Shown here in pieces: positions 8,276 to 49,808 of a stretch of 55,289 bases of DNA. The DNA lies in the NCBI GenBank assembly GCA_025454975.1, contig JALONK010000017.1, positions 1 to 55,289 on the forward strand, given 5' to 3'. The notes below the pieces were generated by a model that made no database searches, had not been told where the DNA came from, and saw only the letters and a program-made list of their open reading frames with translations. Positions within the stretch are counted from its first letter, which is position 1. Every line of letters begins with the position of its first letter. A program made the translations under genes and the position numbers. The stretch is from Bacteroidia bacterium. GTDB lineage: Bacteria > Bacteroidota > Bacteroidia > UKL13-3.

Positions 8276-8320
8276 GAGCCAATCAAATGTTGTATACTTG
8301 AATACTAAACAGATGCAAGT

Positions 8321-32714: not shown

Positions 32715-34025
32715 TTATTGAAATACAAATAGTGCCTTAAATTTATCTAAAAATAATTTTTCTAAAACACTTTTATTATCCAACGTAATGGTAGCGGTTC
32801 CTGTTAAGCCATACCTAGGTTGTATTGGTTTATGGTAAGTTGTTTTCATGTTATTGTTTAAACCAATTTGCACCAAGTATAGGTTAAGCAAACCATCATT
32901 GGTTTTGATTTCTTGTGGAGTTGCCGAAATTGATTTTACAAATCCTTTTATAACACCATACTCCTCAAAATTATATCCGTCAAATTTTAAAATTGATGTT
33001 TGATTTAAAGTTATTTTCCCGAAGTTTTGTTGTGGAATTAGCACTTCACAAATCCAATTAGTTGAGTCTGAAATTAAATAAAGTATAGGCTCACCGGCTT
33101 GGATTTGAATACCTTCATATAAGTTTTTATGAAAAGAAACAATGCCATTGAAAGGTGCAATAAATAAAAACTTACTTTTCCAATCTTGAATAGTACTTCT
33201 TAGCAATGCAAAACTCTGCAAATAATTTTGCTGTTGTTGAAGTATTGATTTTTCAAGTACCAACAGTTGCTGCTCTATATCATTAAGTGTATTTTCATTG
33301 TTAATTAAGTTTTGTTGTAAGTTATTGATGTTTAATTTTCTTTGTAGTCTTGTTGATTCTGCACTCCTTAATTCTGTTTTGGTAATGCTTCTTTGTTGAT
33401 TTAATAGGGAGTCGGATTCCCATGATTCATTAGCCAAATCATATTCACGTTCATAAATTAATTTTTGTTGCCATAGATTCTGTCGAGTTAATAACAGGTT
33501 CGACTTTCTTTTAAGGATAATATCTTTCTCTCTTCTGTATTGTCCATCTGAAATTGCTTGGTATAGTTCATTACTACTTCTTTTAAATTGTTCGAATGAT
33601 TGTTGTACTTCTCCAAGATTTTGAAACGATAAAGGATGAATAAAAGGAATGCTATCAACCAAGTTGCTGTCAAGTAAGGTTTGGATGGTATTTAGCTTAG
33701 ATTCTAGAGCTTCAACTTCTGTTAAATCTGCTACACTTTCAAGTACCAATAATATTTCACCTTTTTTTACTGTGCTTTGGTCGTGAATGTTTTTTTTGAT
33801 AATACGACCGTTTAGTTTTGCAACCAAAGCCTTTGGTGGGCTGCTGCTTGTAAGTGTAAATTTGCCCTCAAGCACATCGGGCGTTTTGATAAAATATAAT
33901 CCAACCAAAACAATAATACCAATAAAGAATAAAAACGACATACCATATCTTAATACAAAACTTAATTTACGACTAAGTAAATAGTTGATGTTTTCGTTGT
34001 GTTGATATAGTTTGTCTTCGTTCAT
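32715..34025 (-). CDS. HlyD-type membrane fusion protein of the lanthipeptide exporter
   Basis: This 436-residue adaptor links the inner-membrane ABC exporter to an outer-membrane channel. One N-terminal helix (about 29-47, YGMSFLFFIGIIVLVGLYFI) is followed by a lipoyl-like half-motif (ALVAKLNGRIIKKNIHDQ), a long coiled-coil hairpin rich in Gln/Leu (about 100-270), the second lipoyl half (FLFIAPFNGIVSFHKNLYEG) and a beta-barrel domain. It lies 2 bp downstream of the C39-ABC gene, completing the inner-membrane side of a type I secretion system. The matching TolC-type gene is in the opposite operon. Confidence 0.9.
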   Translation of the reverse strand: MNEDKLYQHNENINYLLSRKLSFVLRYGMSFLFFIGIIVLVGLYFIKTPDVLEGKFTLTSSSPPKALVAKLNGRIIKKNIHDQSTVKKGEILLVLESVADLTEVEALESKLNTIQTLLDSNLVDSIPFIHPLSFQNLGEVQQSFEQFKRSSNELYQAISDGQYRREKDIILKRKSNLLLTRQNLWQQKLIYEREYDLANESWESDSLLNQQRSITKTELRSAESTRLQRKLNINNLQQNLINNENTLNDIEQQLLVLEKSILQQQQNYLQSFALLRSTIQDWKSKFLFIAPFNGIVSFHKNLYEGIQIQAGEPILYLISDSTNWICEVLIPQQNFGKITLNQTSILKFDGYNFEEYGVIKGFVKSISATPQEIKTNDGLLNLYLVQIGLNNNMKTTYHKPIQPRYGLTGTATITLDNKSVLEKLFLDKFKALFVFQ

Positions 34026-34027
34026 TT

Positions 34028-36301
34028 TTAATTTCCTAGTTCTAATTGATTTTTTACTAATTCATAATATTTTCCTCTATGTGCAGTAAGCGTTTGATGA
34101 TTGCCGATTTCCATAATTTTACCATTCTCCATCACAATAATTTGGTCGGCATGTTGCACTGTGCTTAATCTATGAGCAATAACAACAACTGTTCGCCCTT
34201 CAAAAAAGGCATTTAAATTGTCCATGATTTTTCGCTCATTGTTCGCATCCAAACTGCTGGTGGCTTCATCCAAAAATAAATAGTTCGGGTTTTTATATAC
34301 AGCTCTAGCTAATAAAATACGTTGCCTTTGTCCCATGCTTACCTGTGTACCGTCATTGCCGATTTCAGTTAAGTATCCATTTGGTAGTGTGCTTATAAAA
34401 TCATCAATATTGGCAATTTTACCTGCCTTAATAATATTACTCATATCTACGGGTAAACCCGAAGCAATATTTTCTGCAATGGTTGTATTAAATAATCTTC
34501 CATCTTGCATCACCACCCCGCATCTATCCCTCCAATGTCCGTGATGAAGATTTTTAAAATGGGTTGAACCTAAAAAGATATTTCCTTTTTTCGGGTCGTA
34601 AAATTTCATCAACAATTTTAATAAAGTTGTTTTACCACTTCCACTTGCGCCAACAATAGCTGTTATTTTTCCTGATTGTATGGTAAAGTTTATATCATCA
34701 AGAACCGGTGTTAATCTCTCACTTCCATATACAAAACTTACATTTTCAAGTATAATAGGTTCTTGTTCCGGTATGTCATTTAATAAATTTAAAGTGGTAT
34801 CTGTTTCATCTTTTTGCAATACCACATCACCAATTCTATCCATACCAATTCTGGCTTGTTGTAGCGAGTTTACCAAACCATACAATTGTTGAATGGGTGA
34901 ATTTAATTGTCCAATAATCATATTAATAGCAAACATGCCACCCAAACTTAAATCACCATTTATAACTGCCGTGGCCGATGTAAAACTAATTAATATGCTA
35001 GTGGCTTGCCCCAACATGCTACCACCAATACTTTGGAATTGACCAACATTTAAGTTTACAATTTTTTGTTTGTATAAGTTTGCTTGTATTTCCTCCCATT
35101 GCCAGCGGTGTTGTTTGGCACTGTTGTTTATTTTTATCTCTTGAATCCCTTCTAACATTTCAATCACCTTGCTGTTTTCTTTACTGCCTAGGTGAAACAT
35201 TTTATAGTCTATTTTTTTACGCCATGATAAGAACAAATATGTCCACACAAAACCTAAAACTGCGCCTACAGAAAAGATAAGCAAAATGCCGGGATGGTAA
35301 CCGCCAAGCATAACCACCAAAATGCTCATATTAAGCAATGAAAAGATGGTACCTAAAGAACTTACTGTTAACAAACCTTCAATACGTTTATGGTCGCCAA
35401 TACGTTGCATGATGTCTCCGGTTACATGGCTGTCAAAAAATGGAATATTGAGGTTGAATAATTTATAAAAAAAATCAGATACCATACCTACATTCATGCG
35501 TGTGCCAAGATGCATGAGAATTTTAGTTTGAATAAACTGAATAAGAATACTACCAACAAAAACCGCCAACTGTGCCAATAGAACCAACCGGATCATGCTT
35601 TGATTATGCATGTTTACGCCCTTATCTATCATGGCTTGGGTAAGCATGGGGCTGGCAAGTGTTATTATGCTGCTAAGCAACATGCCCATAGCCAACTGCA
35701 CAAAATAACTTTTGTAAGGTTTGAAGTAATGTAACAGGTAATTAATGCCTAATTTTTTTTGTTCACCATCATTTTGTTCACGACTAAAAAATTCTGGAGT
35801 AGGTTCTAATACTAAGGCATAACCTTGGGGTTGGTTCGAGGTTTCATGATTGATGTTATCGTCAGTTCGAGAATCAACTGCGAGTGCATGGTGCATTGTA
35901 TTTTTGTTTGATTTTATTGCCCAATGTTCAATCAATTCTTTTTCTGTTAGCTGTAATAATTCTTTTGCCGGATCGGCTATACAAAATTTGTGATCACCAA
36001 ACCACTTGCGTTTATAATCATACAATACCACGAAATGGTTATTATCCCAGTGCAAAATGCTTGGGTGGCTCGTTGCGATTTCTTTTAATTTATCTATATC
36101 TATTTTAACACCAATTGTTTTAAATCCTATCGCTTCGGCTGCTTCACTGATGCCGAGCATACTTACTCCAGTTTTTATGATGTGGCTCCGTTCTCTTAAA
36201 TAATCTATCGAATAATTTCTTCCGAAAAATTGCGCAATCATTTTAAGGCAAGCGGGTCCGCAATCTTTTAAGCCTAGTTGGTGGTAGAAAGGGAATGTCA
36301 T
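34028..36301 (-). CDS. Peptidase-containing ABC exporter (C39 peptidase, ABC membrane domain, ATPase)
   Basis: This bifunctional exporter cleaves double-glycine leaders and pumps out the mature peptide. The C39 domain occupies about 1-135: HQLGLKDCGPACL gives catalytic Cys14, NNHFVVLYD gives His89 and ADPAKE gives Asp110. Six membrane helices follow (about 195-480). The nucleotide-binding domain has Walker A GASGSGKT (551-558), a signature VSMGQRQ (654-660, Met for the usual Gly), Walker B YLFLDEA (674-680) and H-loop His710. Intact catalytic residues fit the GG sites in both precursor peptides. The gene starts in the regulator stop codon (TAATG). Confidence 0.94.
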   Translation of the reverse strand: MTFPFYHQLGLKDCGPACLKMIAQFFGRNYSIDYLRERSHIIKTGVSMLGISEAAEAIGFKTIGVKIDIDKLKEIATSHPSILHWDNNHFVVLYDYKRKWFGDHKFCIADPAKELLQLTEKELIEHWAIKSNKNTMHHALAVDSRTDDNINHETSNQPQGYALVLEPTPEFFSREQNDGEQKKLGINYLLHYFKPYKSYFVQLAMGMLLSSIITLASPMLTQAMIDKGVNMHNQSMIRLVLLAQLAVFVGSILIQFIQTKILMHLGTRMNVGMVSDFFYKLFNLNIPFFDSHVTGDIMQRIGDHKRIEGLLTVSSLGTIFSLLNMSILVVMLGGYHPGILLIFSVGAVLGFVWTYLFLSWRKKIDYKMFHLGSKENSKVIEMLEGIQEIKINNSAKQHRWQWEEIQANLYKQKIVNLNVGQFQSIGGSMLGQATSILISFTSATAVINGDLSLGGMFAINMIIGQLNSPIQQLYGLVNSLQQARIGMDRIGDVVLQKDETDTTLNLLNDIPEQEPIILENVSFVYGSERLTPVLDDINFTIQSGKITAIVGASGSGKTTLLKLLMKFYDPKKGNIFLGSTHFKNLHHGHWRDRCGVVMQDGRLFNTTIAENIASGLPVDMSNIIKAGKIANIDDFISTLPNGYLTEIGNDGTQVSMGQRQRILLARAVYKNPNYLFLDEATSSLDANNERKIMDNLNAFFEGRTVVVIAHRLSTVQHADQIIVMENGKIMEIGNHQTLTAHRGKYYELVKNQLELGN

Positions 36302-36987
36302 TAAATATCTGTGTTTATGCCTAGGTTAAATGTGTAAACTTCACCATGTTTAACCAAGTGATTGGCAATAGCCCAAGCAGTTGCTTGAGGCATGGTACTA
36401 AACCCCAATATTTGAAGCATGTTAGCTCTGTATTGCTCAATAGTATGTTTTTTTAGTTTCATTGCATCGGCAATCTCTGTGGTAGTTAAACCTTGACAGC
36501 TATACGACAAAATTTTCAAATGGTTTGAGTTAAGCAATTCAAATTTAGGGTCCTGATCCTTTTTGGATAATTGTTTTATTTTAGTGATACTATCCCAATT
36601 CGCAAATAATTTTTCATCAAAGCCATTATTTCTTTCTATTACCTTTGAAAGCATTTGAAATAATTCGTTTTTTTCTTTTGGGCAGTACCCAAATGCGCCC
36701 CCATTCAAGGCTCCAACCATGTGTTTATAATTGAACGCGTGGCTCATTAATATGGGTTTACCTGAATAACCTTTTTTTAGTAGGAGGGTAATAACATCTA
36801 TACCATCAACAAGCGGCATGTGGGCATCAATCAAACAAATATCCGATTGAATTTCTACAATGTTATGGATAACTTCAATACTGCTGTTATAAATACTGAC
36901 TATTTTATAATCCTTGCTGTTTTCTATCCAACATTTTAGCAATTGGATATCAAGATGGCTATCATCAATAATGGTTAATGTTTTCAT
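36301..36987 (-). CDS. LuxR/NarL-type response regulator of the lanthipeptide locus
   Basis: The receiver domain has Asp8-Asp9, phospho-acceptor Asp54 in CLIDAHMP and switch Lys104 in GYCPKE. A LuxR-type HTH follows at about 150-215 (SCQGLTTTEIADAMKLKKHTIEQYRANML). It is probably a DNA-binding activator or repressor controlled by phosphorylation. No histidine kinase is in the locus. It is coupled by a one-base overlap to the exporter gene and faces lanA1 across a 218-bp promoter region. A broken copy of its first 55 codons lies upstream of lanA2. Confidence 0.9.
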   Translation of the reverse strand: MKTLTIIDDSHLDIQLLKCWIENSKDYKIVSIYNSSIEVIHNIVEIQSDICLIDAHMPLVDGIDVITLLLKKGYSGKPILMSHAFNYKHMVGALNGGAFGYCPKEKNELFQMLSKVIERNNGFDEKLFANWDSITKIKQLSKKDQDPKFELLNSNHLKILSYSCQGLTTTEIADAMKLKKHTIEQYRANMLQILGFSTMPQATAWAIANHLVKHGEVYTFNLGINTDI

Positions 36988-37033
36988 GAATACAAATTGT
37001 TATACAGAAATAGTTGAATTTTTCATAAAAGGC

Positions 37034-37051
37034 AATAGAACTTATTCTATT
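37034..37051. promoter_or_regulatory. Operator-like dyad 1 upstream of lanA1
   Basis: AATAGAA-CTTA-TTCTATT is an 18-bp palindrome with 7-bp arms. It is 172 bp before the lanA1 ATG at 37206. An identical-arm dyad occurs 173 bp before the lanA2 ATG. A LuxR-type dimer binding site is a plausible role, by inference. Confidence 0.6.
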
Positions 37052-37061
37052 TATTTTCTTT

Positions 37062-37079
37062 AATAGAATAAGTTCTATT
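37062..37079. promoter_or_regulatory. Operator-like dyad 2 upstream of lanA1
   Basis: AATAGAA-TAAG-TTCTATT has the same arms as dyad 1, start to start 28 bp away. Because the central four bases are complementary, the two dyads also form a perfect 18-bp inverted repeat with a 10-nt spacer, so a strong hairpin is an alternative reading. Confidence 0.6.
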
Positions 37080-37134
37080 GAATAGAATGGAATTCACGAA
37101 TAATATTGTTTATAGAATTTACCATAGACCCTAT

Positions 37135-37150
37135 TGCGCATAAAGGTTAA
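37135..37150 (+). promoter_or_regulatory. Conserved box upstream of lanA1
   Basis: TGCGCATAAAGGTTAA ends 55 bp before the lanA1 ATG. The lanA2 region has TGCGCATAAAAGTTAA at exactly the same distance. It is conserved inside otherwise diverged DNA; function is inferred to be promoter or regulator binding. Confidence 0.5.
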
Positions 37151-37205
37151 ATGGCAAATACAAAAAACAATATTTTTATTTTACTAAAGTTTTTGGCAGG
37201 TTTTG

Positions 37206-37553
37206 ATGTATAAACCGCGAAATAATATGAAACCAAAAAAGATAAAATTACAATTGAACAAAGAGACTATTGTAGAATTAAACAATGTTGAAATGTCAGC
37301 CATTGAAGGTGGGTTGATGTGGACAACCAGTTTTGGCCATTGCCAAAGTAGTTGCTGTCCCCCACCTACTGGTTACACTTTAGGCCATCCACTTTGTTGC
37401 ACATCTGAAGACACAGATTCTTGTATGCCACGAAACGGTAGGTATGTTTTAGCGGGAGAAAGAGATACTTTTAGAGGTGAAATAATTCCTACGGATTTTA
37501 TGCCTAGATTTGACGACCGCACCAATCCTGTCATTGATGGTACAGCTGGGTAA
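37206..37553 (+). CDS. lanA1: Lanthipeptide precursor 1 (class I, double-glycine leader)
   Basis: This 115-residue peptide has a leader with the Bacteroidota class I lanthipeptide signature KLQLNKETIVEL and a GG cleavage site at residues 35-36 (SAIEGG). The predicted 79-residue core has six Cys (core positions 10, 14, 15, 28, 29, 37) and many Ser/Thr before position 37, then a 42-residue tail with no Cys. ATG 37206 is used because an AGG lies about 6 bp upstream; ATG 37227 (MKPKKIKLQL) is an equally likely start and fits family models. LanB and LanC in the same direction would make (methyl)lanthionine rings; the C39 exporter should cut after GG. Confidence 0.85.
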   Translation: MYKPRNNMKPKKIKLQLNKETIVELNNVEMSAIEGGLMWTTSFGHCQSSCCPPPTGYTLGHPLCCTSEDTDSCMPRNGRYVLAGERDTFRGEIIPTDFMPRFDDRTNPVIDGTAG

Positions 37554-37576
37554 TAATTTCTTTGGTTGATTCAGAT

Positions 37577-37624
37577 TGTCAAAAATCTAGTCATTAATTT
37601 ATTATAATGATTAGGTTTTTGACA
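37577..37624 (+). terminator. Strong hairpin after lanA1, likely attenuator or RNA-stabilising element
   Basis: Two 20-nt arms (37577-37596 and 37605-37624) pair at 18 of 20 positions, with the two others G-T, around an 8-nt loop. No T run follows, so it is not a textbook intrinsic terminator. It sits between the precursor and the modification genes, where partial termination would give precursor excess, as in many lanthipeptide operons. Confidence 0.6.
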
Positions 37625-37640
37625 TTTAGAACGATATTTT

Positions 37641-38894
37641 ATGCATAAAACATTGTATTTTGTGTTCAGTCTATTCATCAATGTATTCTCCTTTGCGCAG
37701 CGTTCAAATTTTGGCGAATTAAGTAAATTAGTTACACCGGTAAAACTGAATGATTATGAACAATATAGCTATCTCTCAAAGATATTGGAGAATAATAAAA
37801 TTTTGGCGTTAGGTGAAGAAACCCATGGTACTTCAGAATTTTTTAAAATAAAAACTGATATTATTAAATACTGTGTAATTCATCTAAATTATAAAATACT
37901 TTTTATTGAAGCAGATGTTTCTGGCACTGAAAGTATTAATAACTATATCACGAAAGGAGTCGGTAGTGGAAAAACTGTATTATTTGAATTAGGTACTGCT
38001 GCATGGATGACTAATGAAATGTTACAATTAGTCGAATGGTTAAGGATTTATAATTCGCAAAATACTGAAGATAACAAGGTGCTTTTCTGCGGCATAGATG
38101 TACAATGGTCCTCAAATATAATTAAACAATTGAACAAGTATTATTTTAAGTCCAATATGCTATCAGTAAACTCGAAAAATTATTTGGATTCTTTTTCTAA
38201 GTTTAAATATATCCATTCTTATGTGAGGGATACTTTGCTTATTAATGAACTTAACAGCTTAGACTTCTCTGATGTTGATTCAAACGAAAATTATAAAAGA
38301 CTAGTAAACTTATTAGGTCAATGTTTAAAGTTGAATCAAGAAATTGATGATTTTAAGAAAAGTAAACTGAGGGACGAATTTATGGCGCAAAACGTAATCC
38401 AGTCATACAAAAAATTTAATAAGAAGGCAATTTTATGGGCGCACAACGAACACATTACGAAGACATTAAATTTAGCTAAATATTATCCATTGGGTTATTA
38501 TCTTTCAAATGAATTTGATAAAAGCTACTATTCAATAGGGCTTCATACTTGTCAAGGTAAAATTGGATTTTACAATAAGATGATAAAAGAGGTTAATTAT
38601 TTAGACATCCCCTTAGATAATTCTAATTCTTCGCTCAGCTTTATTTTAAGTAGGTTGGAATACAATACATTTTTTTTTGATATAAATGACCTTAAGAATA
38701 AGACTATTAAGAGTCAAAAGCTACTATATAAAAAGCTTCGAATAAGGGCAGCTACTCTCATTTTTGACAGTAAACTAAATAAGTATTTTATTACAATTCA
38801 TTATAAAAAGTCCTTCATAGAAAAGAACTACAATGCAATCATTTTTATTAATCCATCAAATGGATCTACTCCATTTAAAATTAAATCAGAATAA
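37641..38894 (+). CDS. Erythromycin esterase-like secreted protein
   Basis: The N-terminus is a signal peptide (MHKTLYFVFSLFINVFSFAQ). The rest matches the erythromycin esterase family (PF05139): LALGEETHGTSEFFKIKTDI with Glu59 and His62, LFIEAD with Glu90, FCGIDVQW, and WAHNEHITK, whose His residues correspond to the catalytic region. The known enzymes open macrolide lactones, but the family is broad and most members are uncharacterised. Its place between lanA1 and lanC1 suggests a role in maturing or handling the peptide after export, since it is predicted to be periplasmic or secreted. This role is inferred. Confidence 0.85.
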   Translation: MHKTLYFVFSLFINVFSFAQRSNFGELSKLVTPVKLNDYEQYSYLSKILENNKILALGEETHGTSEFFKIKTDIIKYCVIHLNYKILFIEADVSGTESINNYITKGVGSGKTVLFELGTAAWMTNEMLQLVEWLRIYNSQNTEDNKVLFCGIDVQWSSNIIKQLNKYYFKSNMLSVNSKNYLDSFSKFKYIHSYVRDTLLINELNSLDFSDVDSNENYKRLVNLLGQCLKLNQEIDDFKKSKLRDEFMAQNVIQSYKKFNKKAILWAHNEHITKTLNLAKYYPLGYYLSNEFDKSYYSIGLHTCQGKIGFYNKMIKEVNYLDIPLDNSNSSLSFILSRLEYNTFFFDINDLKNKTIKSQKLLYKKLRIRAATLIFDSKLNKYFITIHYKKSFIEKNYNAIIFINPSNGSTPFKIKSE

Positions 38895-38908
38895 TAATTT
38901 CTAAATTA

Positions 38909-40102
38909 ATGAATCTTAATTCCGATATACTTGCAAAAGTGCGCGAAGAGCTCAATGTAATAAACAAAATATTATTGTCTGTTGATGTTAATAGACAACA
39001 GTTAGGTCTTTATAATGGTTTATCTGGTATAGCCTTAATGATGGCTACAAATTATCTTGCAAATAAGGAGTCAATATTCAGAGATAAACTGAGCGAAATA
39101 TTAGAAAAAACATCGCTGATTATTGAAAACGATAAAGTTGATGGGATGTTCTCAGTGGGCCTTGCAGGCTGGGGTTGGCTAATATTGCATCTTGAAGAAA
39201 AAGAACTCCTTGAAGATATTGAGGATGTGTTAAGCCAAATTGATTATGTTTTATTTCTTGATTTAAGAAGATTACTTTATCAGAATGAATACGATATGCT
39301 GAATGGAGCAATTAGTATAGGACTATATTTTATCAAAAGAAAACAACCAGAAAGAGTATCTCCATTAATTAATTATTTAGAAGCCTTTTGTAAGAGTGGT
39401 GTGTTCGATTTAAAGAGAAAAATGCATAGAACAGGAGAGTACGTATTCGATTTTGGATTGGCTCATGGATATGCAGGAGTCATTTATTTTCTATCAAAGT
39501 GTGCTCAATCAAATTATGAGGTAGAAAAAAGTATTTCTCTAATAAAACTTGCAAAGCAATTCATGTTTTCTAATTTGCTTAATTATGAAATAGATGGGGC
39601 CTTATTTCCACACTTAAAATGGGTTGAAACAGATAGAATGGAAAAAGGTCGCTTGGCATGGTGCTATGGAGACTTAGGAGTTCTTTATACTTTACTAAAA
39701 ACAGCTAGTATCATTGAGGATTTTGGACTTGAAAAATTTTCTATAAATGGATTAACTCTTAACTCCGATAGAAGGAATTTATTAGAATGTATGATTTTTG
39801 ATGCAGGATTTTGTCATGGTACGGCAGGGGCTGCTTACCTATTTAACAAAGTTCGGCTTTTAGTTCCTAAAAGTGAGAATTTTCTTTTTGCCACAGAATA
39901 CTGGATAAATTCAACTCTCAAAAAAGCAACTGACAAAATTACATTAGAACGATACCAATTTTATAATCCAAATTCTGAAGGTAAGGGCAGTTTTACTTCA
40001 TCTTATGCACTCTTAGATGGAATAACTGGAGTAGGTCTAACGTATTTAACGATATTATACCCTGATTTATCAGATTGGGATGAATGCTTGTTATTAAGTT
40101 AA
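38909..40102 (+). CDS. lanC: LanC-like lanthionine cyclase 1
   Basis: LanC cyclases add Cys thiols to dehydrated Ser/Thr to form lanthionine rings. The alpha/alpha-barrel repeats are marked by GLYNGLSGIAL, FGLAHGYAG (183-190), LAWCYGDLG with zinc ligand Cys252, and FCHGTAG with zinc ligands Cys302 and His303. All three zinc ligands are present. The length of 397 residues is normal. It follows the esterase-like gene by 14 bp and precedes lanB by 4 bp. Confidence 0.93.
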   Translation: MNLNSDILAKVREELNVINKILLSVDVNRQQLGLYNGLSGIALMMATNYLANKESIFRDKLSEILEKTSLIIENDKVDGMFSVGLAGWGWLILHLEEKELLEDIEDVLSQIDYVLFLDLRRLLYQNEYDMLNGAISIGLYFIKRKQPERVSPLINYLEAFCKSGVFDLKRKMHRTGEYVFDFGLAHGYAGVIYFLSKCAQSNYEVEKSISLIKLAKQFMFSNLLNYEIDGALFPHLKWVETDRMEKGRLAWCYGDLGVLYTLLKTASIIEDFGLEKFSINGLTLNSDRRNLLECMIFDAGFCHGTAGAAYLFNKVRLLVPKSENFLFATEYWINSTLKKATDKITLERYQFYNPNSEGKGSFTSSYALLDGITGVGLTYLTILYPDLSDWDECLLLS

Positions 40103-40106
40103 TCCA

Positions 40107-43100
40107 ATGAAAAGTCAATATGATATTAAAGGAGTGATTATACGCACTCCACTTTTGCAATTCTCACAAATCAATAACTCAACTTCCGAAGAAACTTTTG
40201 AAAGACCAATTTTAAGTAATGCACTTTTCATTGCATCATCTGTACTCTATCAACAGCTACAAAAAGTAAAATTCGTTGAGAAACAAGATGAAAAATTCAT
40301 CAAAAGCCTTTTAAAATACCATACTCGAGCCTGCACGCGCTGCACACCTTATGGCTTGTTTGCCGGGCTTCATACTTCACCAATAAATAGTTCAGCAACC
40401 CTTGTAACAATATCTTCTACTCCAAAACCCAGCTTGCGTTTAGATATGGATTATTTGGTAAATGTATATCATGATTTATGTAAGGATGAAACACTGATTG
40501 AAGAACTGATTTATTATCCCAATACCAGTTTGTATTTAGTAGGCAAAAAGTGGCGGTATCATGAGTTTAGAACGCTTAATTCTCGTACTGTTTTTCATTT
40601 GGTAAACATTGATGATAATGTGGTACTAAGTAAACTTATTAAACAAAGCTCAAATGGACTGAGCCATAATCAATGTATAAACATTATCACTGAATTTGGT
40701 TTTGATAAAGCAGAAGCAACACAATACCTTAAAGAACTTATTACAAGCCAGGTGTTGGTTAATGAATTATACCCAAATGTAAGTGGTGAGGAATACCAAA
40801 CTGTATTATTTAATAAGCTCAGTCAGTTTAAGCAATATGAAAATTTGCCAACCGAGGTTAACACAATTTTAGCTTCAAAAGAGTCAATTATAAACAAGAC
40901 GGCGAAAATAAAAGAGGTATTAGCATCCTACTTTACTACAGCCATTAACGAAAGTAAATTTATCCAGGTTGATACACTTAAAGAGCCTATTCAATCGAGT
41001 GTTAATCAAGAAATTCCCAATCAGGTATTAGAAGCAGCCGAGGTATTGAATAGATTAAGTGCATTTGATGAAAGCCAAAGTACACTTGCCAAATTTAAAC
41101 GTGCCTATTACGAACGATATGAAGAAGCCGAAATTCCATTGCTTGAATTATTAGATACCGATATTGGAATTAACTATAAAAATGCTGTAAGTGAAACCGA
41201 ATACCGCAGCAGTAATAAAAATAATATGCTGTGGGATGTACACTCAAAGTTTAGGTTTGATTTATACCTTAAAGCACAAAAGGAAAACCTAACTACAATT
41301 GCCATTACTGATGAAGACATTAAACAGTTTAAAACACCCAATCATCCCTTGCCTAATAGTATGGCGTTTATGGGCGAACTATTGCAAGATGGTGAAGTAA
41401 CCAAAATAGTTTGGGGAGGCATGAGTAATAATGCTACCATATTGCTCGGTAGATTTGGTCATCTAGATAAAAGCATAGCCAATTTGTGTATTGACATAGC
41501 AAAGAAAGAAGAAGCCTTACAACCCGATAAAATATTTGCCGAAATCGTTCATATTTCAGAAGGGCGTTTGGGTAATATTTTAACACGCCCACATTATCGC
41601 AAATTCGAAATACCTTACTTAGCTATTAGCACCTTGCCATATGAACAGCAAATACAAGTGAATGACTTGATGGTAAGTGTTAAAAATGATAAGGTTATAT
41701 TACGTTCAAAGCGACTAAATAAGGAAGTAATACCGCGCATGGCAAATGCACACAATTATTCAGCAATGGGCTTACCTATTTATCATTTTTTGTCTGATTT
41801 GCAGCATCAAGGTATTAAAGGATATTTTGCTTGGAATTGGAGTTTTTTAGGTGGAGAAAAGTTTTTACCGAGAGTTACCTATAGAAACATCATACTTTCA
41901 CCTGCATATTGGAATGTACAATCGATAAAATTACTAGCTATACAAAAATCAAAACCTGAACAACGACATACCATGTTTGCTGATTTGATTAAAGAATACA
42001 ACTTATACGAAAAGGTATTTTTGAGTGAAGGCGATAATGAATTGTTATTGGATTTAACAAATCAATTATGCATCGACATTCTATTGGATGTCGCAAAAAA
42101 ATATACTACTGTAAAACTCACCGAGTGCTTATTTAATGAAGATAACTTATTAGTTAAAGATGAAAACGGGAATGGTTACACAAATGAAATTATTATACCA
42201 TTTGTAAAACAAGCTAATAACAGAGAAGGGATAAAAAGTGTAAGCAACAAAAAACAAACTATACAAGCCAGAGTACAACGAATTTTTGAACCATATAGCG
42301 AATGGGTGTATTTTAAACTATATACCGGAACCAAAACAGGAGACAAAGTACTCATTCAACAAATTGAAAGCATCACTAATAAACTGAAGAAAGAAGGTGT
42401 AATAAGGAAATGGTTTTTTATACGCTACACCGATCCTAAGAATCATCTTCGTTTACGATTTCAACTAACTCAAACAACTGATTTTATCACTTTAAATAAA
42501 GTTATTAGAAAAGAGCTAGCAGGACTTGTAAATAAAGGTATAATCTGGAAGGTACAGACAGATACTTACCAACGTGAATTGGAACGATATGGTCATGAAA
42601 CAATGGACTTCTCAGAATCAGTCTTTCATATCAATTCACAAACTACTTTGAGACTCTTAAAGTTAATTAAAACAGACCAACTGCAAACTCACCGATATTT
42701 AGTTGGTTTACTTGGTGTAATTAATATGTTTGATGCGTTTGGATATAACATCGAAAAACGATTAATCTTAATTGAACAAAGTGCGGATGTATTTGCAACG
42801 GAGTTTGAACTTCAACAGTCACATATGCTTCGAGATAAGATAAAAGACATTTACAGAAGCAACTCTGCTTTTATTGAAAGATTAAATAATGGGGTAATTC
42901 CTGAGAATTTAAATGACAATTTTTTTAATGCTGTACTAACGATTTACAAAAAGCAGAAGCAACAACTACAACCTTTGGCAAAAAATATTCAACAAGCGAA
43001 AAATGGCAAACCCATCGATGAATTAATACCGAGTTATATACACATGTTTGTCAATCGCATTTTCAATTCAAACCAACGCTTCGAGGAGTTTATGATTTAT

Positions 43101-43163
43101 CAAATACTTAAGAAATATTACACCTCTTCATTAGCTAAAGCAAAATATGCAAAAGCGAATTAA
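40107..43163 (+). CDS. lanB: Full-length class I lanthipeptide dehydratase LanB
   Basis: LanB dehydrates Ser/Thr of the precursor using glutamyl-tRNA. The 1018-residue protein has both parts fused: the glutamylation domain (LKYHTRACTRCTPYGLFAGL near 70-88; RAYYERYEEAEIPLLELL; LGGEKFLPRVTYRN) and the elimination domain of the SpaB_C type from about residue 728 (YFKLYTGTKTGDKV, WFFIRYTDPKNHLRLRF, TYQRELERYG). It is the only LanB in the window and so must serve both precursors if lanA2 is modified. Its last 17 bases overlap the TolC-type gene. Confidence 0.95.
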   Translation: MKSQYDIKGVIIRTPLLQFSQINNSTSEETFERPILSNALFIASSVLYQQLQKVKFVEKQDEKFIKSLLKYHTRACTRCTPYGLFAGLHTSPINSSATLVTISSTPKPSLRLDMDYLVNVYHDLCKDETLIEELIYYPNTSLYLVGKKWRYHEFRTLNSRTVFHLVNIDDNVVLSKLIKQSSNGLSHNQCINIITEFGFDKAEATQYLKELITSQVLVNELYPNVSGEEYQTVLFNKLSQFKQYENLPTEVNTILASKESIINKTAKIKEVLASYFTTAINESKFIQVDTLKEPIQSSVNQEIPNQVLEAAEVLNRLSAFDESQSTLAKFKRAYYERYEEAEIPLLELLDTDIGINYKNAVSETEYRSSNKNNMLWDVHSKFRFDLYLKAQKENLTTIAITDEDIKQFKTPNHPLPNSMAFMGELLQDGEVTKIVWGGMSNNATILLGRFGHLDKSIANLCIDIAKKEEALQPDKIFAEIVHISEGRLGNILTRPHYRKFEIPYLAISTLPYEQQIQVNDLMVSVKNDKVILRSKRLNKEVIPRMANAHNYSAMGLPIYHFLSDLQHQGIKGYFAWNWSFLGGEKFLPRVTYRNIILSPAYWNVQSIKLLAIQKSKPEQRHTMFADLIKEYNLYEKVFLSEGDNELLLDLTNQLCIDILLDVAKKYTTVKLTECLFNEDNLLVKDENGNGYTNEIIIPFVKQANNREGIKSVSNKKQTIQARVQRIFEPYSEWVYFKLYTGTKTGDKVLIQQIESITNKLKKEGVIRKWFFIRYTDPKNHLRLRFQLTQTTDFITLNKVIRKELAGLVNKGIIWKVQTDTYQRELERYGHETMDFSESVFHINSQTTLRLLKLIKTDQLQTHRYLVGLLGVINMFDAFGYNIEKRLILIEQSADVFATEFELQQSHMLRDKIKDIYRSNSAFIERLNNGVIPENLNDNFFNAVLTIYKKQKQQLQPLAKNIQQAKNGKPIDELIPSYIHMFVNRIFNSNQRFEEFMIYQILKKYYTSSLAKAKYAKAN

Positions 43164-44646
43164 CCAATATAATCGCATTGTTACACTTATGCTAACGAAA
43201 TGGTTAGCACTATTAGTTCCATGTTTTGCATTTTCGCAAACTGCACTAACCCTGCAGCAAGCCATTGCACTTGCGCAAACACAAAGCATTAAAGCCGCCA
43301 TTAACAAAAACAATAGTGAGGTCGCCTATCAAACATACAGATTACAACGCGCGCAGTTGTTTCCACAGGTTAACTTAAATGCAAACCTGCCGGGATATAC
43401 CAATAGTATTACTAGCGTAACCCAACCTGATGGTACCATTAAGTTTACTACCGTGGAGCAAGCGTATAGTTCTACCGGTATTAGCCTTACCCAAAAAATT
43501 GCTGCTACAGGTGGTACTTTTACTGCTAGCAGTAATATCAATAGATTTGATAGGTTAACAGGCGATAGAACCAGCAACTTTAATACCCAACCTTTTGTGT
43601 TAGGGTTAAGCCAACCTTTATTTCGGTTTAATGAAACTGCTTTTAATGTAAAGGTTGCACAAATGAGTTTGTTAATTAGCTCTAAAGTATTTGTTAAAGA
43701 TCAAGAAGCAATTGCTGTAGAAGTGTGCACTCAGTTTAATAGTTTATTGCAAATGCAACAACAAATAATGTTGTTAAAACTTACCAAATTAAGAACCGAT
43801 ACTTTATTCAATAACTCAAAATTAAAATTAAAATTGGGAAGTATTGGAGAAGAAGAATATCTACAAATACAGTTAGAACAAATAAATAATACAACCGCGT
43901 TACAGCAAGCAGAAATGAATGCAGAGTTACTTCGTATGAAATTTTGTAATTTATTAAATTTGCCAACTAATACCTTAATTACATTAGTTGTAAGCACGCC
44001 AAATAATCTTACTGCAGCAGTCATTGATAACATCAACAATAATCTTTTATTTGAACAGTATAAGAACAATAATCCGGAATATGAACAACTGCGAGTAAAG
44101 CAATTTCAGCATATTGCAGATGTTAAACGAGCAAAGTTAAGTAGATTACCAAACCTAAATTTAACGGCTGGTTATGGAAGTAATCAATCAGCTTCCACTT
44201 TTAATAACGCCTATGAAAATGTATTAACTCAGCGTAATGCTACTTTAGGAATTAGTATGCCAATATTTACATCGGGTGCTAATAATGCAAATCTAAAAAT
44301 AGTAAATTATCAACAACAAAATTTACAATTACAAAGGCAACAATTAGAGCAACGTGTAATGAATGATTTAATGAAGATGATGCAAACCTTTCGTGTTAGT
44401 ATTATTCAAATACAAAACTCACAATTAGCAGATAGTATAGCCCAACGCAGGTACCAAATTAGTATGAACAAATATCAAGCAGGTAAAATAACCTACAATG
44501 ATTTATTGCTTGCTCAAAACCAACAAATACAAGCCAATCAAAATTACCTCAATGCCATAGCTGCATATTGGCAAGCGTATTATCAATTGCGATTAACCAC
44601 CTTATATGATGTTACCAAACAAGAACCACTTTATTATACCAACTAA
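43147..44646 (+). CDS. TolC-type outer membrane efflux protein
   Basis: A 499-residue outer-membrane channel. After a signal peptide (TKWLALLVPCFAFSQ) it shows the OEP repeats: ALTLQQAIALAQTQSIKAAINKNN, long Gln-rich coiled coils, and LPNLNLTAGYGSNQ in the second half, ending with a helix of the YNDLLLAQNQQIQANQNYL type. It should join the HlyD adaptor and C39-ABC exporter, encoded on the other strand, into a full tripartite export system. ATG 43147 overlaps lanB; an internal Met 14 codons on is an alternative. Confidence 0.92.
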   Translation: MQKRINQYNRIVTLMLTKWLALLVPCFAFSQTALTLQQAIALAQTQSIKAAINKNNSEVAYQTYRLQRAQLFPQVNLNANLPGYTNSITSVTQPDGTIKFTTVEQAYSSTGISLTQKIAATGGTFTASSNINRFDRLTGDRTSNFNTQPFVLGLSQPLFRFNETAFNVKVAQMSLLISSKVFVKDQEAIAVEVCTQFNSLLQMQQQIMLLKLTKLRTDTLFNNSKLKLKLGSIGEEEYLQIQLEQINNTTALQQAEMNAELLRMKFCNLLNLPTNTLITLVVSTPNNLTAAVIDNINNNLLFEQYKNNNPEYEQLRVKQFQHIADVKRAKLSRLPNLNLTAGYGSNQSASTFNNAYENVLTQRNATLGISMPIFTSGANNANLKIVNYQQQNLQLQRQQLEQRVMNDLMKMMQTFRVSIIQIQNSQLADSIAQRRYQISMNKYQAGKITYNDLLLAQNQQIQANQNYLNAIAAYWQAYYQLRLTTLYDVTKQEPLYYTN

Positions 44647-44660
44647 CAGTTTATTACAGT

Positions 44661-44825
44661 TCAATCAAACAAATATCCGATTGAATTAATTTATTGAATG
44701 TTATGAATAACTTCAATACTGCTGTAATAAAGACTGACTATTTTATAATCCTTACTGTTTTCTATCCAACATTTTAGTAATTGGATATCAAGACAGCTAT
44801 CATAAATAATGGTTGATGTTTTCAT
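44661..44825 (-). pseudogene. Broken copy of the 5' end of the response regulator gene
   Basis: Read leftward from ATG 44825, the translation starts MKTSTIIYDSCLDIQLLKCW and tracks the first 43 residues of the intact regulator with few changes. It then hits a stop and an indel, yet recognisable homology continues to about 44661 (the DICLID region). Asp8 of the acidic pair is changed (DDS to YDS). It is a remnant with no HTH and no exporter gene behind it, left by duplication of the regulator-promoter-leader segment. Confidence 0.85.
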
Positions 44826-44871
44826 GAATTCAAATTTCAGAACACAATTAGTTATGTCCTGCATATTGTGC

Positions 44872-44889
44872 AATAGAACTTTTTCTATT
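44872..44889. promoter_or_regulatory. Operator-like dyad upstream of lanA2
   Basis: AATAGAA-CTTT-TTCTATT has both 7-bp arms identical to the lanA1 dyads, 173 bp before the lanA2 ATG. The bases in between differ, so the arms look selected. Confidence 0.6.
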
Positions 44890-44973
44890 TTTATTTAAAA
44901 CATAGAATAATTACTAATAATCAAGTACTGTAATAGTTTTATGATTGTGTTATAAATTCATGATTAGCTTCAA

Positions 44974-44989
44974 TGCGCATAAAAGTTAA
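44974..44989 (+). promoter_or_regulatory. Conserved box upstream of lanA2
   Basis: TGCGCATAAAAGTTAA differs by one base from the lanA1 box and ends the same 55 bp before the start codon. Confidence 0.5.
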
Positions 44990-45044
44990 TTGAGAATTAT
45001 TAAACTTTATTATTGTTTTAACCTAAATTTTTTAGCAGGTTTTG

Positions 45045-45389
45045 ATGTATAAACCGCAAAGAGAAATGAAATCTAAAAAACTAAAATTGGAATTGAACAA
45101 AGAGACAATTGCAGTGTTGGATGAAATGCAACTTAACCAAGTACATGGTGGAACGGGAAGTTCTCAAGCATGCGCTCAAACTATTAAATACACAGTTGAA
45201 GTTGCTGTTGCTATTTCTACTAATATTCTTTTTGAAGAGGGTAAAGATACCTCTTATTGGAGATGTGATCCAAATGTTTACATAAAGATGGAGGACAAAT
45301 CACAATGGGTTGGTAGAAATGGTGGCGCTACCCTTGATAATACAGCAGTATCGCACGGAGGGCAGTACATTTGCATAAAACCTTATTAA
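45045..45389 (+). CDS. lanA2: Lanthipeptide precursor 2 (double-glycine leader, divergent core)
   Basis: The 114-residue peptide has a leader very like that of lanA1 (KLELNKETIAVLDEM, then NQVHGG with GG at 35-36). The predicted 78-residue core is unrelated: only three Cys, at core positions 7, 38 and 74, a hydrophobic stretch VEVAVAISTNILF, and scattered Ser/Thr. ATG 45045 mirrors lanA1; ATG 45066 is the alternative. It heads a second arm with its own LanC but no LanB. The wide Cys spacing allows few rings, or disulfides instead. Confidence 0.82.
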   Translation: MYKPQREMKSKKLKLELNKETIAVLDEMQLNQVHGGTGSSQACAQTIKYTVEVAVAISTNILFEEGKDTSYWRCDPNVYIKMEDKSQWVGRNGGATLDNTAVSHGGQYICIKPY

Positions 45390-45432
45390 TTAGCTTTGTT
45401 AAAATTGTAGATAAAAACGTTTAAACATAACC

Positions 45433-46248
45433 TTGCAAACGAATTCTTTTTTTAAAAAAATTGTACTTGCCGTTGTGTATGTCATTATATACATCGCTCT
45501 GTATATAGCTATTCGTATTTTGTATGATGAATACAAAACATATGGGTGGGATTCTGTTGAAATTGAACAGCAGACGATTGATTACATCAATAAGAACTTT
45601 ACGTTTGACGAGATTTATTTTTTCTCTGAAATAGGTTTTGAAGATGAAGGAGGTAATACCGCAAGTGTCAAAAAGTTTGATTCTGATACAATTACTTACC
45701 AAGTTATAGGTACTCCAACAGAATCCCAAGCCCTTTTCCTGAGCAAAATGGTAGATACTCTTAATAAAGTTTTACTCTACAATAAAATTATTGAGGTTGG
45801 TAACAAAGATTTTAATGCCAACCTCATTGTCAATTTCTGTAAGAGTAATGATTTAAAAAAGATTAGTAAAAATAGATATTCAGATGCTACAGCAGGTTAT
45901 TGTATAATAAAACAACTTGAAAAGGCAGTATTGAAAAGGGCTGAAATTTTTATACTTATTGATAAACAAGATCAGATTAATATTTACGGAGTAATACTTC
46001 AAGAATTCACACAAAGTTTGGGTTTGTTTAATGATTCGGAAAGATTAAAAAATACCATTTTTAGAGATGGATATGGCCTCGATAGTGTATATGGCCCGCT
46101 AGATTTAGCATGTATAAAAATACTCTATAACAGCGGAATTAAACCTGGGGTAAGACTAAAAACCTTTGAAAATGCAATGGGCATTGATTATGAGCAAATA
46201 GCAAATGAACAAACGAAAAAGAAGAAATCAATTTTCGAATTCAATTAG
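45433..46248 (+). CDS. Membrane-anchored DUF2927-like protein
   Basis: One N-terminal helix (IVLAVVYVIIYIALYIAIRI) anchors a soluble domain. Its later half matches the DUF2927 pattern: GYCIIKQ, VILQEFTQSLGLFNDSE, then GLDSVYGPLDLACIKILYNSGIKPGV. DUF2927 proteins have a predicted protease-like fold but no shown activity; the central Glu and Gln of QEFTQ fit the family, and a canonical HExxH is absent. The start is TTG 45433: an in-frame stop lies seven codons upstream and no ATG lies near. It follows lanA2 by 43 bp, suggesting a role in processing, immunity or display of the second peptide. Confidence 0.7.
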   Translation: MQTNSFFKKIVLAVVYVIIYIALYIAIRILYDEYKTYGWDSVEIEQQTIDYINKNFTFDEIYFFSEIGFEDEGGNTASVKKFDSDTITYQVIGTPTESQALFLSKMVDTLNKVLLYNKIIEVGNKDFNANLIVNFCKSNDLKKISKNRYSDATAGYCIIKQLEKAVLKRAEIFILIDKQDQINIYGVILQEFTQSLGLFNDSERLKNTIFRDGYGLDSVYGPLDLACIKILYNSGIKPGVRLKTFENAMGIDYEQIANEQTKKKKSIFEFN

Positions 46249-46326
46249 AGTATAACGATATATAAACCCTATTCGCACAAAAACGGAAGAATGCTATGAC
46301 TAAATTCTAAAAAATACTTTATAATA

Positions 46327-47463
46327 TTGGAAAAAGAATCAAATCTTACATCACTTTTATTTCTACTGGAAAATGAGCTAGAGTGCAAAACAGACGGGAA
46401 TAGCCCACAAGAATTATATCAATTATGGGGCGTTTGTTTGTATTATCTGTATAGATACTATTCAACTAACAATAAAAAATATGTTGACAAATGCATTCAA
46501 GTATACACTGATGCCATTTCAAGTATAATTATAAATAAGGAAGTATCAGTTTCTTTACATGATGGGCTTGGAGGTTTCTACTTTTTATATTTAAAACTAA
46601 GCGGAAATATGCTGATAGAAAAAGATGATAGATTGGAGACATATTTTTCAGGTAAGCTTAAAACCTCGAATTCAAACCTCAAGCTTGATTTAATTGGCGG
46701 TGTTTTTGGAAACTACATTATCACGAAAGATAAGTTATATTTGAATATAGCCTATAAGTTGCTAATGCAGTTTAGTACAGAACTAAATCTTCTAATTGAA
46801 AGTTTTCAAAAAAATGAAGGTCAAAAGGAACTCAGTTATAAAGAACGTTATTTTCTGAATACAGGATTAGCTCACGGTTGGGCAGGTAAGTTACAATTCA
46901 TCATAAGATATTATAACCAAATAAAAAACGAATTTGTTAGAAATAAATTAATTGACATATCAAATAATCTCTACAAACATATAATTAACATAAGGCAAGA
47001 TAATCATAAGTTGCAATTTCCAAGTTTTGCCCTTTATAATCAATTTAATGTTAAGAGGCTATCTTGGTGCCATAACGATTTAGGTATCGCCTTTTCACTT
47101 TTAATATACTCTAGGCAAACTAATAATAAAAATGTAGAAGCCATTGCAATAGATATTGTTGATAGAACTTGTGATTTAAACATTAATGATAATATTGGTA
47201 TTGACGATCCATTTATTTGCCATGGTACTGCTGGCGTAGCATTAATTTATTATCAGATATACCAAATAACTAAGGTTACTAGGTATTATGATAAATCACA
47301 ATATTGGCTTAATATAAGCTATGACCTTTATAAAAAGTATGAATCATCAGCTTCAGATATTGGACTATTACAAGGCTTGTCCGGTTTAGGGATTGCGGTG
47401 CAATATTTAGAAGGAGAGATTACATGCACAGATTGGCTTGAATTGATTCAACTTAAAATATGA
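46327..47463 (+). CDS. lanC: LanC-like lanthionine cyclase 2
   Basis: This second cyclase of 378 residues is clearly different from LanC1 yet keeps the barrel signatures SLHDGLGGFYFL, TGLAHGWAG (179-187), LSWCHNDLG with zinc ligand Cys248, and ICHGTAG with Cys298 and His299. LanC1 has WCYGD where this has WCHND, so the active-site rim differs. The start is TTG 46327. It overlaps the next gene by 4 bp (ATGA). It probably cyclises lanA2 product. Confidence 0.88.
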   Translation: MEKESNLTSLLFLLENELECKTDGNSPQELYQLWGVCLYYLYRYYSTNNKKYVDKCIQVYTDAISSIIINKEVSVSLHDGLGGFYFLYLKLSGNMLIEKDDRLETYFSGKLKTSNSNLKLDLIGGVFGNYIITKDKLYLNIAYKLLMQFSTELNLLIESFQKNEGQKELSYKERYFLNTGLAHGWAGKLQFIIRYYNQIKNEFVRNKLIDISNNLYKHIINIRQDNHKLQFPSFALYNQFNVKRLSWCHNDLGIAFSLLIYSRQTNNKNVEAIAIDIVDRTCDLNINDNIGIDDPFICHGTAGVALIYYQIYQITKVTRYYDKSQYWLNISYDLYKKYESSASDIGLLQGLSGLGIAVQYLEGEITCTDWLELIQLKI

Positions 47464-48386
47464 AAACAGAGATTTACCAAAGCTTATGGCTTAAGCCAGC
47501 ACTAGTGAGCGAAAAGGAGGGTTTCCTTACAGGTAATCAACGCTTTAATGGTGGCTGGTACACACCCGAATTGTATTATTTATCACTAGCCTACAGCTTT
47601 TATAAGCTTAAATTTTACTATAATAACGTCTCGTTGATATGTGACAAATATGCCAAAACACTATTAGTTGACATTTTAGGTTTAACCTATGAAAACGTAA
47701 TCATAGAATTAGATAAAATTGACACTTCATTCTCTAAATCTTGGGCACTTGGAAAGATACATGCTTATAGTATTGCAACGGCACCTTTTCAACACTATGA
47801 TGGTGATGTTTTTCTTTGGGCAAAGACAAAGCTGTTTACAACAAAAAATGAACTCATTTTTCAGAACTATGAATACAATGAAACATACTATAGAGATTCT
47901 TTAACAGAGATACATGAAAAATTATCATTCATTCCAGATGAGTTGAAAAATATCAATAAAAATATAGTAAGCATTAATGCTGGAGTAATAGGATGTAATT
48001 CTCCTGACTTTATAAAAGAATATACAGAAACGGCTTTAGAATTTGTTTATGCAAATTCTAACTATCTAAAGTTTATAGACCAAGGTAGGTTTAATACTGT
48101 TTTTGAACAACTTCTCTGTTACAAAATTGCTAAAAGACGTAAGCTAAAAATGACTCCCAATTTAAGAGTATCCAAAACCAATAATACGGCTAACTTAAAC
48201 AAGTTTACAAACTTCTATGGTGTGCCTGAGAATGTAAAATACATACATCCATTAGGTTTTAAAAAGAAAATTGATTTAATAGGTGCTCATATACATAAGT
48301 GGTTTAATTATGAATTTCCGATTGAATATAAAGTTACCAAACAAAAAATAAGTGATGCAGTTGAATACGTTAAAAAACCAATTTAG
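47460..48386 (+). CDS. DUF6734-like, glycosyltransferase-like protein of the lanthipeptide locus
   Basis: The protein starts KTEIYQSLWLKPAL and has GGWYTPELYYLSLAYSFYKL, WALGKIHAYSIATAPFQHYDGDVFLW and a C-terminal HPLGFKKK. This pattern resembles the DUF6734 group of Bacteroidota, which has a GT-A-like layout with a DxD-type motif (DGD). A sugar-transfer role on the peptide is possible but unproven. The ATG overlaps the lanC2 stop and the 3' end overlaps the next gene by 32 bp, so it is firmly within the second arm. Confidence 0.6.
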   Translation: MKTEIYQSLWLKPALVSEKEGFLTGNQRFNGGWYTPELYYLSLAYSFYKLKFYYNNVSLICDKYAKTLLVDILGLTYENVIIELDKIDTSFSKSWALGKIHAYSIATAPFQHYDGDVFLWAKTKLFTTKNELIFQNYEYNETYYRDSLTEIHEKLSFIPDELKNINKNIVSINAGVIGCNSPDFIKEYTETALEFVYANSNYLKFIDQGRFNTVFEQLLCYKIAKRRKLKMTPNLRVSKTNNTANLNKFTNFYGVPENVKYIHPLGFKKKIDLIGAHIHKWFNYEFPIEYKVTKQKISDAVEYVKKPI

Positions 48387-49035
48387 ATATAGTAACTTTC
48401 TACTTTATATTTCTGGTTTGACGAAGGACAAGGATTTTTTTTATTCAGAAATCAACTATCGAGATAGAATTGATGATTTAAATCTTGACTCTTTCCCAAC
48501 ATTCAAAAAGTATTTTAATGAAACCTTTCTGTATGAATTACATAAAAGTTTAAACCTGAATAACTGGATGAATGAAGCGAAAATAAATACCATTGAACCC
48601 CTTTCTTACTTGAGTAGAAAAAAAAGTCTTTTGAAGATAGAGTTTATTGTTGTTAAGGATTGTGAAATTTATAAAGCTAATTATGAGTTCGATAGAATAA
48701 TGTATTTTGAGTTTTCCAAAGGAATAGATTTAGACGATTATTTCGAAAAATTTATAAAAGTCGAAAGCTATTACATGTTTAAATTTGATTTTTTATCTAA
48801 ACAAGATATTGAAATAAAGTTAAACAAAATACAACGATTAATTATAGGGTTGATAAAAGGAAATTCTGTTCCATTGGGTGATTTAATCTCTTATGTCACC
48901 TCTGGTGATCTTATTCCTGATATAAAATGGAGTCGATATCATAAAAATTTTGTTTTAAATCAACTAATTCCCCTAATATATTGGGGTTTTATCATACCAA
49001 AAAACACAAGCAAGTTGGATACTATAAATTTTTAA
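48355..49035 (+). CDS. Unrecognised protein, last gene of the lanthipeptide second arm
   Basis: I do not recognise a family. The 226-residue protein is soluble, Lys/Asp/Phe-rich and has no signal peptide. The C-terminal quarter (IQRLIIGLIKGNSVPLGDLI, then NQLIPLIYWGFIIPK) reads like a helix-turn-helix or winged-helix segment, a shape also used by RiPP leader-recognition (RRE) domains. It overlaps the DUF6734-like gene by 32 bp, so it is likely co-translated. ATG 48355 is used, next to a GTG one codon upstream. Confidence 0.6.
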   Translation: MQLNTLKNQFRYSNFLLYISGLTKDKDFFYSEINYRDRIDDLNLDSFPTFKKYFNETFLYELHKSLNLNNWMNEAKINTIEPLSYLSRKKSLLKIEFIVVKDCEIYKANYEFDRIMYFEFSKGIDLDDYFEKFIKVESYYMFKFDFLSKQDIEIKLNKIQRLIIGLIKGNSVPLGDLISYVTSGDLIPDIKWSRYHKNFVLNQLIPLIYWGFIIPKNTSKLDTINF

Positions 49036-49475: not shown

Positions 49476-49730
49476 ATGAAAAATAATTTTTTACAAAAGT
49501 TTAATCGTCAACATTTGTATAGTTTCAAACTAATCCTGGTGTTAGTGTTATTATCTTTCCTTTCAATTTATACAAAAGCACAAGTGGCAACTAGGTCAAA
49601 CTACACTTTCACTACAAATGTATTAAGAAACCTTTCACAAGGAATGAACGGTAACCCTATAGATTTGAGTACACCAGAGAACTTAACCTCTTCTACACTG
49701 TCAACAAACGCATCACCCCTTTTTAGCTAA
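49476..49730 (+). CDS. Short secreted protein, possibly a truncated surface-protein stub
   Basis: This 84-residue protein has a clear signal peptide (KLILVLVLLSFLSIYTKAQ) and about 45 residues after it, VATRSNYTFTTNVLRN and onward, which resemble the first residues of large Bacteroidota adhesins (AxxYTF opening). The frame then stops. No folded domain can fit, so it may be the broken start of a former adhesin gene or a small secreted peptide. The real adhesin starts 79 bp downstream. Confidence 0.45.
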   Translation: MKNNFLQKFNRQHLYSFKLILVLVLLSFLSIYTKAQVATRSNYTFTTNVLRNLSQGMNGNPIDLSTPENLTSSTLSTNASPLFS

Positions 49731-49808
49731 AGATATAAATCACCTAACTTTTAGCCTCATTAACTTTAATAGCATTTGAACAACTTCAAAAACAAAAATT
49801 ATCAATTT

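Follow-up and report, generated by a model that had tools for sequence, protein, structure and literature searches.

The window analysed here, the whole stretch of 55,289 nucleotides from a Bacteroidia bacterium (contig JALONK010000017.1), holds at positions 32715-49035 a two-product lanthipeptide gene cluster, in which gene calls and family searches place all named genes at the expected coordinates. The first-pass annotation had described a class I locus of two arms that has a single LanB, a pair of LanCs and two GG-leader precursors, accompanied by a C39-ABC/HlyD/TolC export system and accessory genes. Both descriptions hold: the profiles of the two-arm locus score above cut-off at matching coordinates, and the export and accessory genes are in place with family matches. 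To these we add a LuxR-type response regulator, its decayed copy and the identities of the accessory genes. The features are listed below; the genes marked as chassis belong to the part of the locus that is shared with relatives.

32715-34025, minus strand: HlyD-type adaptor, chassis (PF13437, TIGR01843)
34028-36301, minus strand: C39 peptidase-ABC exporter, chassis (PF03412 101 bits, PF00664, PF00005)
36301-36987, minus strand: LuxR-type response regulator (PF00072 and PF00196)
36845-37275, no strand: duplicated control region, copy 1, with the regulator 5' end, divergent region and leader start (direct repeats)
37199-37217, plus strand: palindromic start-site element GGTTTTGATGTATAAACCG, ahead of A1
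37227-37553, plus strand: precursor A1, 108 aa (NF038153 33.3 bits)
37641-38894, plus strand: erythromycin-esterase-family accessory protein of arm 1 (PF05139 120 bits)
38909-40102, plus strand: LanC1 cyclase (PF05147 139 bits)
40107-43163, plus strand: full-length LanB dehydratase (PF04738 406 bits, PF14028 220 bits)
43147-44646, plus strand: TolC-type outer membrane protein/OEP, chassis (PF02321 138 bits)
44664-44825, minus strand: response regulator 5' end, decayed copy (78% identity over 54 aa, D1 repeat)
44683-45114, no strand: duplicated control region, copy 2 (direct repeats D1, D2)
45038-45056, plus strand: start-site element, second copy, ahead of A2
45066-45389, plus strand: precursor A2, 107 aa (NF038153 36.3 bits)
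45433-46248, plus strand: DUF2927 membrane-anchored protein (PF11150 74 bits)
46327-47463, plus strand: LanC2 cyclase (PF05147 98 bits)
47460-48386, plus strand: DUF6734 protein, candidate glycosyltransferase (PF20508 234 bits)
48352-49035, plus strand: orf227, conserved orphan of arm 2 (42% identity to its L007 counterpart)

Both arms lie on the plus strand, arm 1 comprising A1, the esterase-family protein, LanC1, LanB and TolC, and arm 2 comprising A2, DUF2927, LanC2, DUF6734 and orf227. Among the neighbouring genes scanned around the response regulator there is no histidine kinase. Downstream of the cluster (49476-55289), a small ORF is followed by Thr/Ser/Gly-rich repeats that look like a portion of a large surface protein.

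The leaders of A1 and A2 both exceed the 22-bit cut-off of NF038153, the NCBIfam model for class I lanthipeptide leaders, and both match LxLxKx5L...GG, with the C39 exporter close by. The A1 core (79 aa) contains 6 Cys, 5 Ser and 10 Thr, while the A2 core (78 aa) contains 3 Cys, 6 Ser and 7 Thr and has the C-terminal end LDNTxV...CIKPY; in searches against family models, neither core has a match past its leader. The TTG starts that the ORF caller proposed for A1 and A2 were discarded, because the spacing between the element and the ATG varies among relatives (8 to 10 nt) and the upstream frame is thus not kept. LanB is a single chain of 1018 aa that aligns along its length to the solved dehydratases 9g04 and 5ehk, carries the FxRYxDPxxHLRLR region and has both its glutamylation and elimination domains above cut-off. 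The zinc-site motifs are retained in LanC1 (WCYGD and CHG, in an alignment to the solved LanC-like 8byk) and in LanC2 (WCHND and CHG), two proteins that share 24% identity. Together, these marks favour a locus that is predicted to dehydrate its peptides, close rings in them, cleave them at GG and export them. Moreover, this LanB is the sole LanB of its genome, and A1 and A2 are its sole leaders of this type. Thus, the cluster is not a chance pile-up, and for A2 the genome offers no alternative dehydratase of class I.

A third LanC-like gene is present elsewhere in the same genome. Outside the window, locus L148 of this genome (G000:C75:58000-76000, positions 4797-9718) encodes a 446-aa Thr/Cys-rich tandem-repeat ORF with units like GPTGWYTCGQATHLLGCTTATSTP, followed by APH-family (25 bits, cut-off 23), HopA1-family (115 bits) and LanC-like (194 bits) proteins. 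By family matches these parts resemble class V lanthipeptide loci, but the putative repeat precursor is unusually large.

The two arms are joined by a duplication. About 430 bp, running from the regulator 5' end through the divergent region to the start of the A1 leader, recur ahead of A2 as direct repeats (D1, 84% over 213 nt; D2, 77% over 141 nt), and the regulator copy before A2 is decayed and carries one stop. This relic shows that arm 2 originated with a copied control region ahead of it. For comparison we used 64 genomes of the order, all of one family, numbered from G000, the window's own. In all four two-slot loci (G000, G057, G010 and G003), the upstream region of slot 2 is closest to slot 1 of its own locus. 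What follows the second element downstream of TolC differs: the window has a lanthipeptide cassette there, G003 one for a graspetide and G010 a KKLERMD-type precursor. Many relatives are fragmented assemblies, and only the window and G010 have both slots and both precursors on one contig; the second element of G057 lies at a contig end, and the G003 locus is split over two contigs.

The palindrome GGTTTTGATNNAYAAACCG stands 8-10 nt ahead of both window precursors, and equally ahead of precursors of all three chemistries described below. It has 17 exact copies in 10 of the 64 genomes, against 0 matches for the reversed control pattern, and the window's genome has exactly two, one for each precursor. 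Every exact copy lies 8-10 nt before the ATG of a small ORF, which encodes a lanthipeptide precursor, a KKLERMD-type precursor or a small secreted/lipoprotein-like protein; the element is not genome-wide. Copies with one or two mismatches occur in G054 (one), G003 (one), G057 and G130 (two). Conservation reaches 1.85 bits per position in the element, compared with 0.45 in the coding region after it. Since the spacing to the ATG shifts the frame, the element must be conserved as DNA or RNA and not as protein; the upstream RNA of the 5' region folds no better than shuffles, which leans towards a DNA site. The element also led to several small-ORF precursor candidates in G056, G058 and G062, and can serve as a short sequence tag for locating precursor genes overlooked by family models. 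At four further loci (L136, L138, L142 and L145) it precedes small secreted/lipoprotein-like genes, with no chassis exporter within the stretch read; in the last three of these a regulator homologue adjoins it.

In G057, G010, G056, G058 and G062, a regulator closely related to the window's (38-54% identity) is divergent from the element and about 200 bp away from it, just as in the window, and in G003 such a regulator adjoins the one-mismatch element. The element is present in 7/7 genomes with a close regulator versus 3/57 without one (Fisher p = 2e-7, shared ancestry uncorrected), and the association between exporter and element across the 64 genomes is similar (p = 1.5e-6, again uncorrected for shared ancestry). 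Because the statistic ignores shared ancestry, we take the link between regulator and element as support and not as proof. G050 has the element and no close regulator, and the regulator of G014 is only 30% identical. From this arrangement we infer that the response regulator could act at the element.

The chassis exporter is found in 8/64 genomes (G000, G054, G058, G003, G057, G062, where it occurs twice, G010 and G014), and the window's copy is 74-93% identical to those of the seven others. It adjoins LanB/LanC genes in G000, G057, G010 and G003, with the LanB of G014 lying on a separate contig (loci L032-L037). In G062 it adjoins a LanM class II synthetase (L140; 413 bits, cut-off 304), and in G062 and G058 it adjoins grasp-with-spasm maturases. 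GRASP/SPASM genes exceed the cut-off of TIGR04192 in L141 and L036, and that of TIGR04193 in L139 and L141. The precursors and gene order of G054 resemble those of G058, and in G003 the graspetide genes come after the LanB-TolC pair on the same contig. As to the other export genes, the window's HlyD is 49-66% identical to those of relatives of all three chemistries, the HlyD of G003 is 92% identical to that of the LanM locus (G062a), and the TolC of G003 is 87% identical to that of the graspetide locus of G058. At some loci (G003, G062b, G014) the place beside the exporter is taken by a regulator of XRE type rather than one like the window's response regulator. All exporter matches in plasmid records fall below 60% identity, and in our searches of the open-licence literature neither the shared chassis nor the element was described.

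In one locus from another family (L108, in G130), an XRE regulator and the element, here with two mismatches, accompany a chassis exporter that is ~87% identical to the window's. The LanB of this locus is only 30% identical to the window's, and an ORF that resembles a transposase lies nearby. This suggests either a transfer between families or a misbinned contig, and as the contig may be misbinned, we kept it out of the main evidence.

The accessory genes of both arms recur in other loci. The A-Ere-LanC-LanB order of arm 1 is also present in L096, L103 and L110, and in L100 an Ere-like gene adjoins LanC/LanB. ATP-grasp loci have also been noted to contain an esterase-family protein, for which a part in modification or resistance was proposed (PMC8939145). 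As regards arm 2, DUF2927 is retained next to A2 in G003, G014 and G050, and DUF6734 occurs near C39 exporters or LanB/LanC in three loci outside the order (L043, L044 and L045). The H-x-D-x-D-x3-W motif of DUF6734 is invariant in 10/10 sequences, and from this DxD-like motif we read the protein as a candidate glycosyltransferase. The structure predictions of DUF6734 (pLDDT 40) and orf227 (pLDDT 34) were unusable, orf227 has no Pfam or NCBIfam match, and PDB sequence searches with DUF6734, DUF2927 and orf227 profiles gave no meaningful match.

The closest counterpart of arm 2 is in L007, a locus of a Bacteroidetes MAG on the same contig as G003:C447, where the order is A2, DUF2927, LanC, DUF6734, an orf227-like gene and LanB, so that in G003 the LanB orthologue comes after the A2-type cassette. 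Identity to the window is 90% for the exporter and 76-82% for the LanB orthologue of L007/G003 (78% over the part covered in L007), intermediate for DUF6734 (65-66%) and HlyD (66%), and 44% for LanC2, 43% for DUF2927 and 42% for orf227. Members of the A2 family occur in G003, G014 and G050. In G014 (L035, 12530-15365) the arm-2 cassette is decaying, with a LanC fragment adjoining ORFs that resemble IS21-type istA/istB, and in G050 (L038, 8367-9882) arm 2 persists without LanB or exporter. A separate observation concerns the G057 precursor (L032, 7161-7376, minus strand), whose core has no Cys, a single Ser and a single Thr, yet LanB and LanC adjoin it.

Overall, we propose, with a probability of roughly 0.7, that the cluster makes two class I lanthipeptides from two cassettes set in a chassis common to other RiPP chemistries. 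Its gene content, the sharing of the chassis, the element, the duplication and the relic of the regulator are apparent from the sequences compared; on the chemistry, the service of a single LanB to both arms and recombination as the route of cassette swapping, we infer as follows. One LanB would dehydrate Ser and Thr in both A1 and A2 through their common LxLxKx5L leader, and rings would be closed by LanC1 on A1 and by LanC2 on A2. The arm-specific proteins may tailor or protect, the esterase-like protein serving A1, and DUF6734, DUF2927 and orf227 serving A2. The C39-ABC protein would cleave behind GG and export the products together with HlyD and TolC. The arms would thus be cassettes in a chassis made of the exporter, the regulator and a ~45-bp 5' region that ends in the palindrome before the precursor start, and in relatives the same chassis carries cassettes for graspetides or class II lanthipeptides. 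As for the slot downstream of TolC, it probably formed when the slot-1 control region was copied and another cassette was placed behind it. A bolder version, to which we give a little under even odds, is that a portable RiPP chassis, comprising the C39 exporter with its adaptor and TolC, the orphan response regulator and the palindromic element, changes its chemistry by swapping cassettes. The conserved 5' element would then be both the site of the regulator and the seam for attaching new precursor cassettes after a copied control region.

The strongest competitor, though an unlikely one, is that we are looking at an ordinary Bacteroidota class I cluster with a recent duplication, in which the sharing of exporters reflects close kinship and the element is a family promoter for small secreted proteins. 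The pairing of LanB with a C39 exporter is indeed common, a full C39-ABC lying within ~9 kb in 15/40 LanB loci sampled from the class, and it is already published (PMC7268733). The exporter tree also follows genus and not chemistry, as the four loci of genus g1, two of class I and two of graspetide type, group at 0.92 support. In addition, the class sample contains no exact element outside the window's family, the G130 copy having two mismatches. However, exporters that are 87-94% identical adjoin LanB, LanM or ATP-grasp/SPASM genes, which differ in kind; the flanking genes differ among G000, G003, G010 and G062, although G054 and G058 share one site; and the restriction of the element to small precursor-like or secreted-protein ORFs also speaks against this account.

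It is less probable still that arm 2 is a decaying remnant and that a lanthipeptide is made from A1 only. The dead regulator copy inside the A2 control region would fit this idea, as would the broken or orphaned A2-type arms of G014 and G050, and arm 2 could be partly inactive. On the other hand, none of the five arm-2 ORFs is interrupted, the zinc-site motifs of LanC2 are intact, A2 is preceded by a perfect copy of the element, and G003 (L007/L037) keeps the full arm-2 gene order. That the mature A1 and A2 peptides work jointly as a two-component lanthipeptide, as the co-occurrence of two precursors and two LanCs with a single exporter might suggest, is very improbable, because A2-type cassettes occur without A1 in relatives and slot 2 downstream of TolC begins with a different leader type in G003 and G010, so that the pairing is not conserved.

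Returning to the reading of two cassettes in a shared chassis, our data suggest that what RiPP clusters of this Bacteroidota family conserve at their core is export and control rather than the enzymes of modification. If so, a single type of exporter may take graspetides as well as lanthipeptides of two classes, and an exporter that tolerant would be a candidate for moving engineered peptides out of Gram-negative hosts.

A 2020 study (PMC7268733) described Bacteroidetes precursors of class I that combine an LxLxKx5L leader and a GG site with a nearby C39 protease, and the window shares with these systems this leader motif, GG, LanB, LanC and the C39 exporter. The joining of LanB to C39, which the first-pass annotation had read as a Bacteroidota, pinensin-like pattern, is therefore a known pattern of the phylum; the likeness to pinensin, also a class I product of Bacteroidetes, fails in that pinensin uses a split LanB (PMC7268733), whereas the window's is full-length. 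Unlike the systems of that study, the window has two LanCs for its LanB, a duplicated control region with a regulator relic, the arm-2 accessory set and a chassis common to other chemistries; among the 40 LanB loci of the class, at least two LanCs occur in 3 and an esterase-family gene in 4. The lanthipeptides of Chryseobacterium and Runella produced in E. coli (PMC9993889) likewise come from class I LanA/LanB/LanC systems of Bacteroidota; the window's cores are long, at 78-79 aa. Grasp-with-spasm graspetides (TIGR04192/TIGR04193; PMC8939145) are paired with the same exporter and element in relatives of the window; of the genes scanned in the window's own cluster, none is of ATP-grasp or SPASM type. 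The window is thus a new two-arm example of an already known kind of cluster, and what is unusual about it is visible only by comparison: by sequence similarity, its exporter, control region and palindrome are common to class II and graspetide loci.
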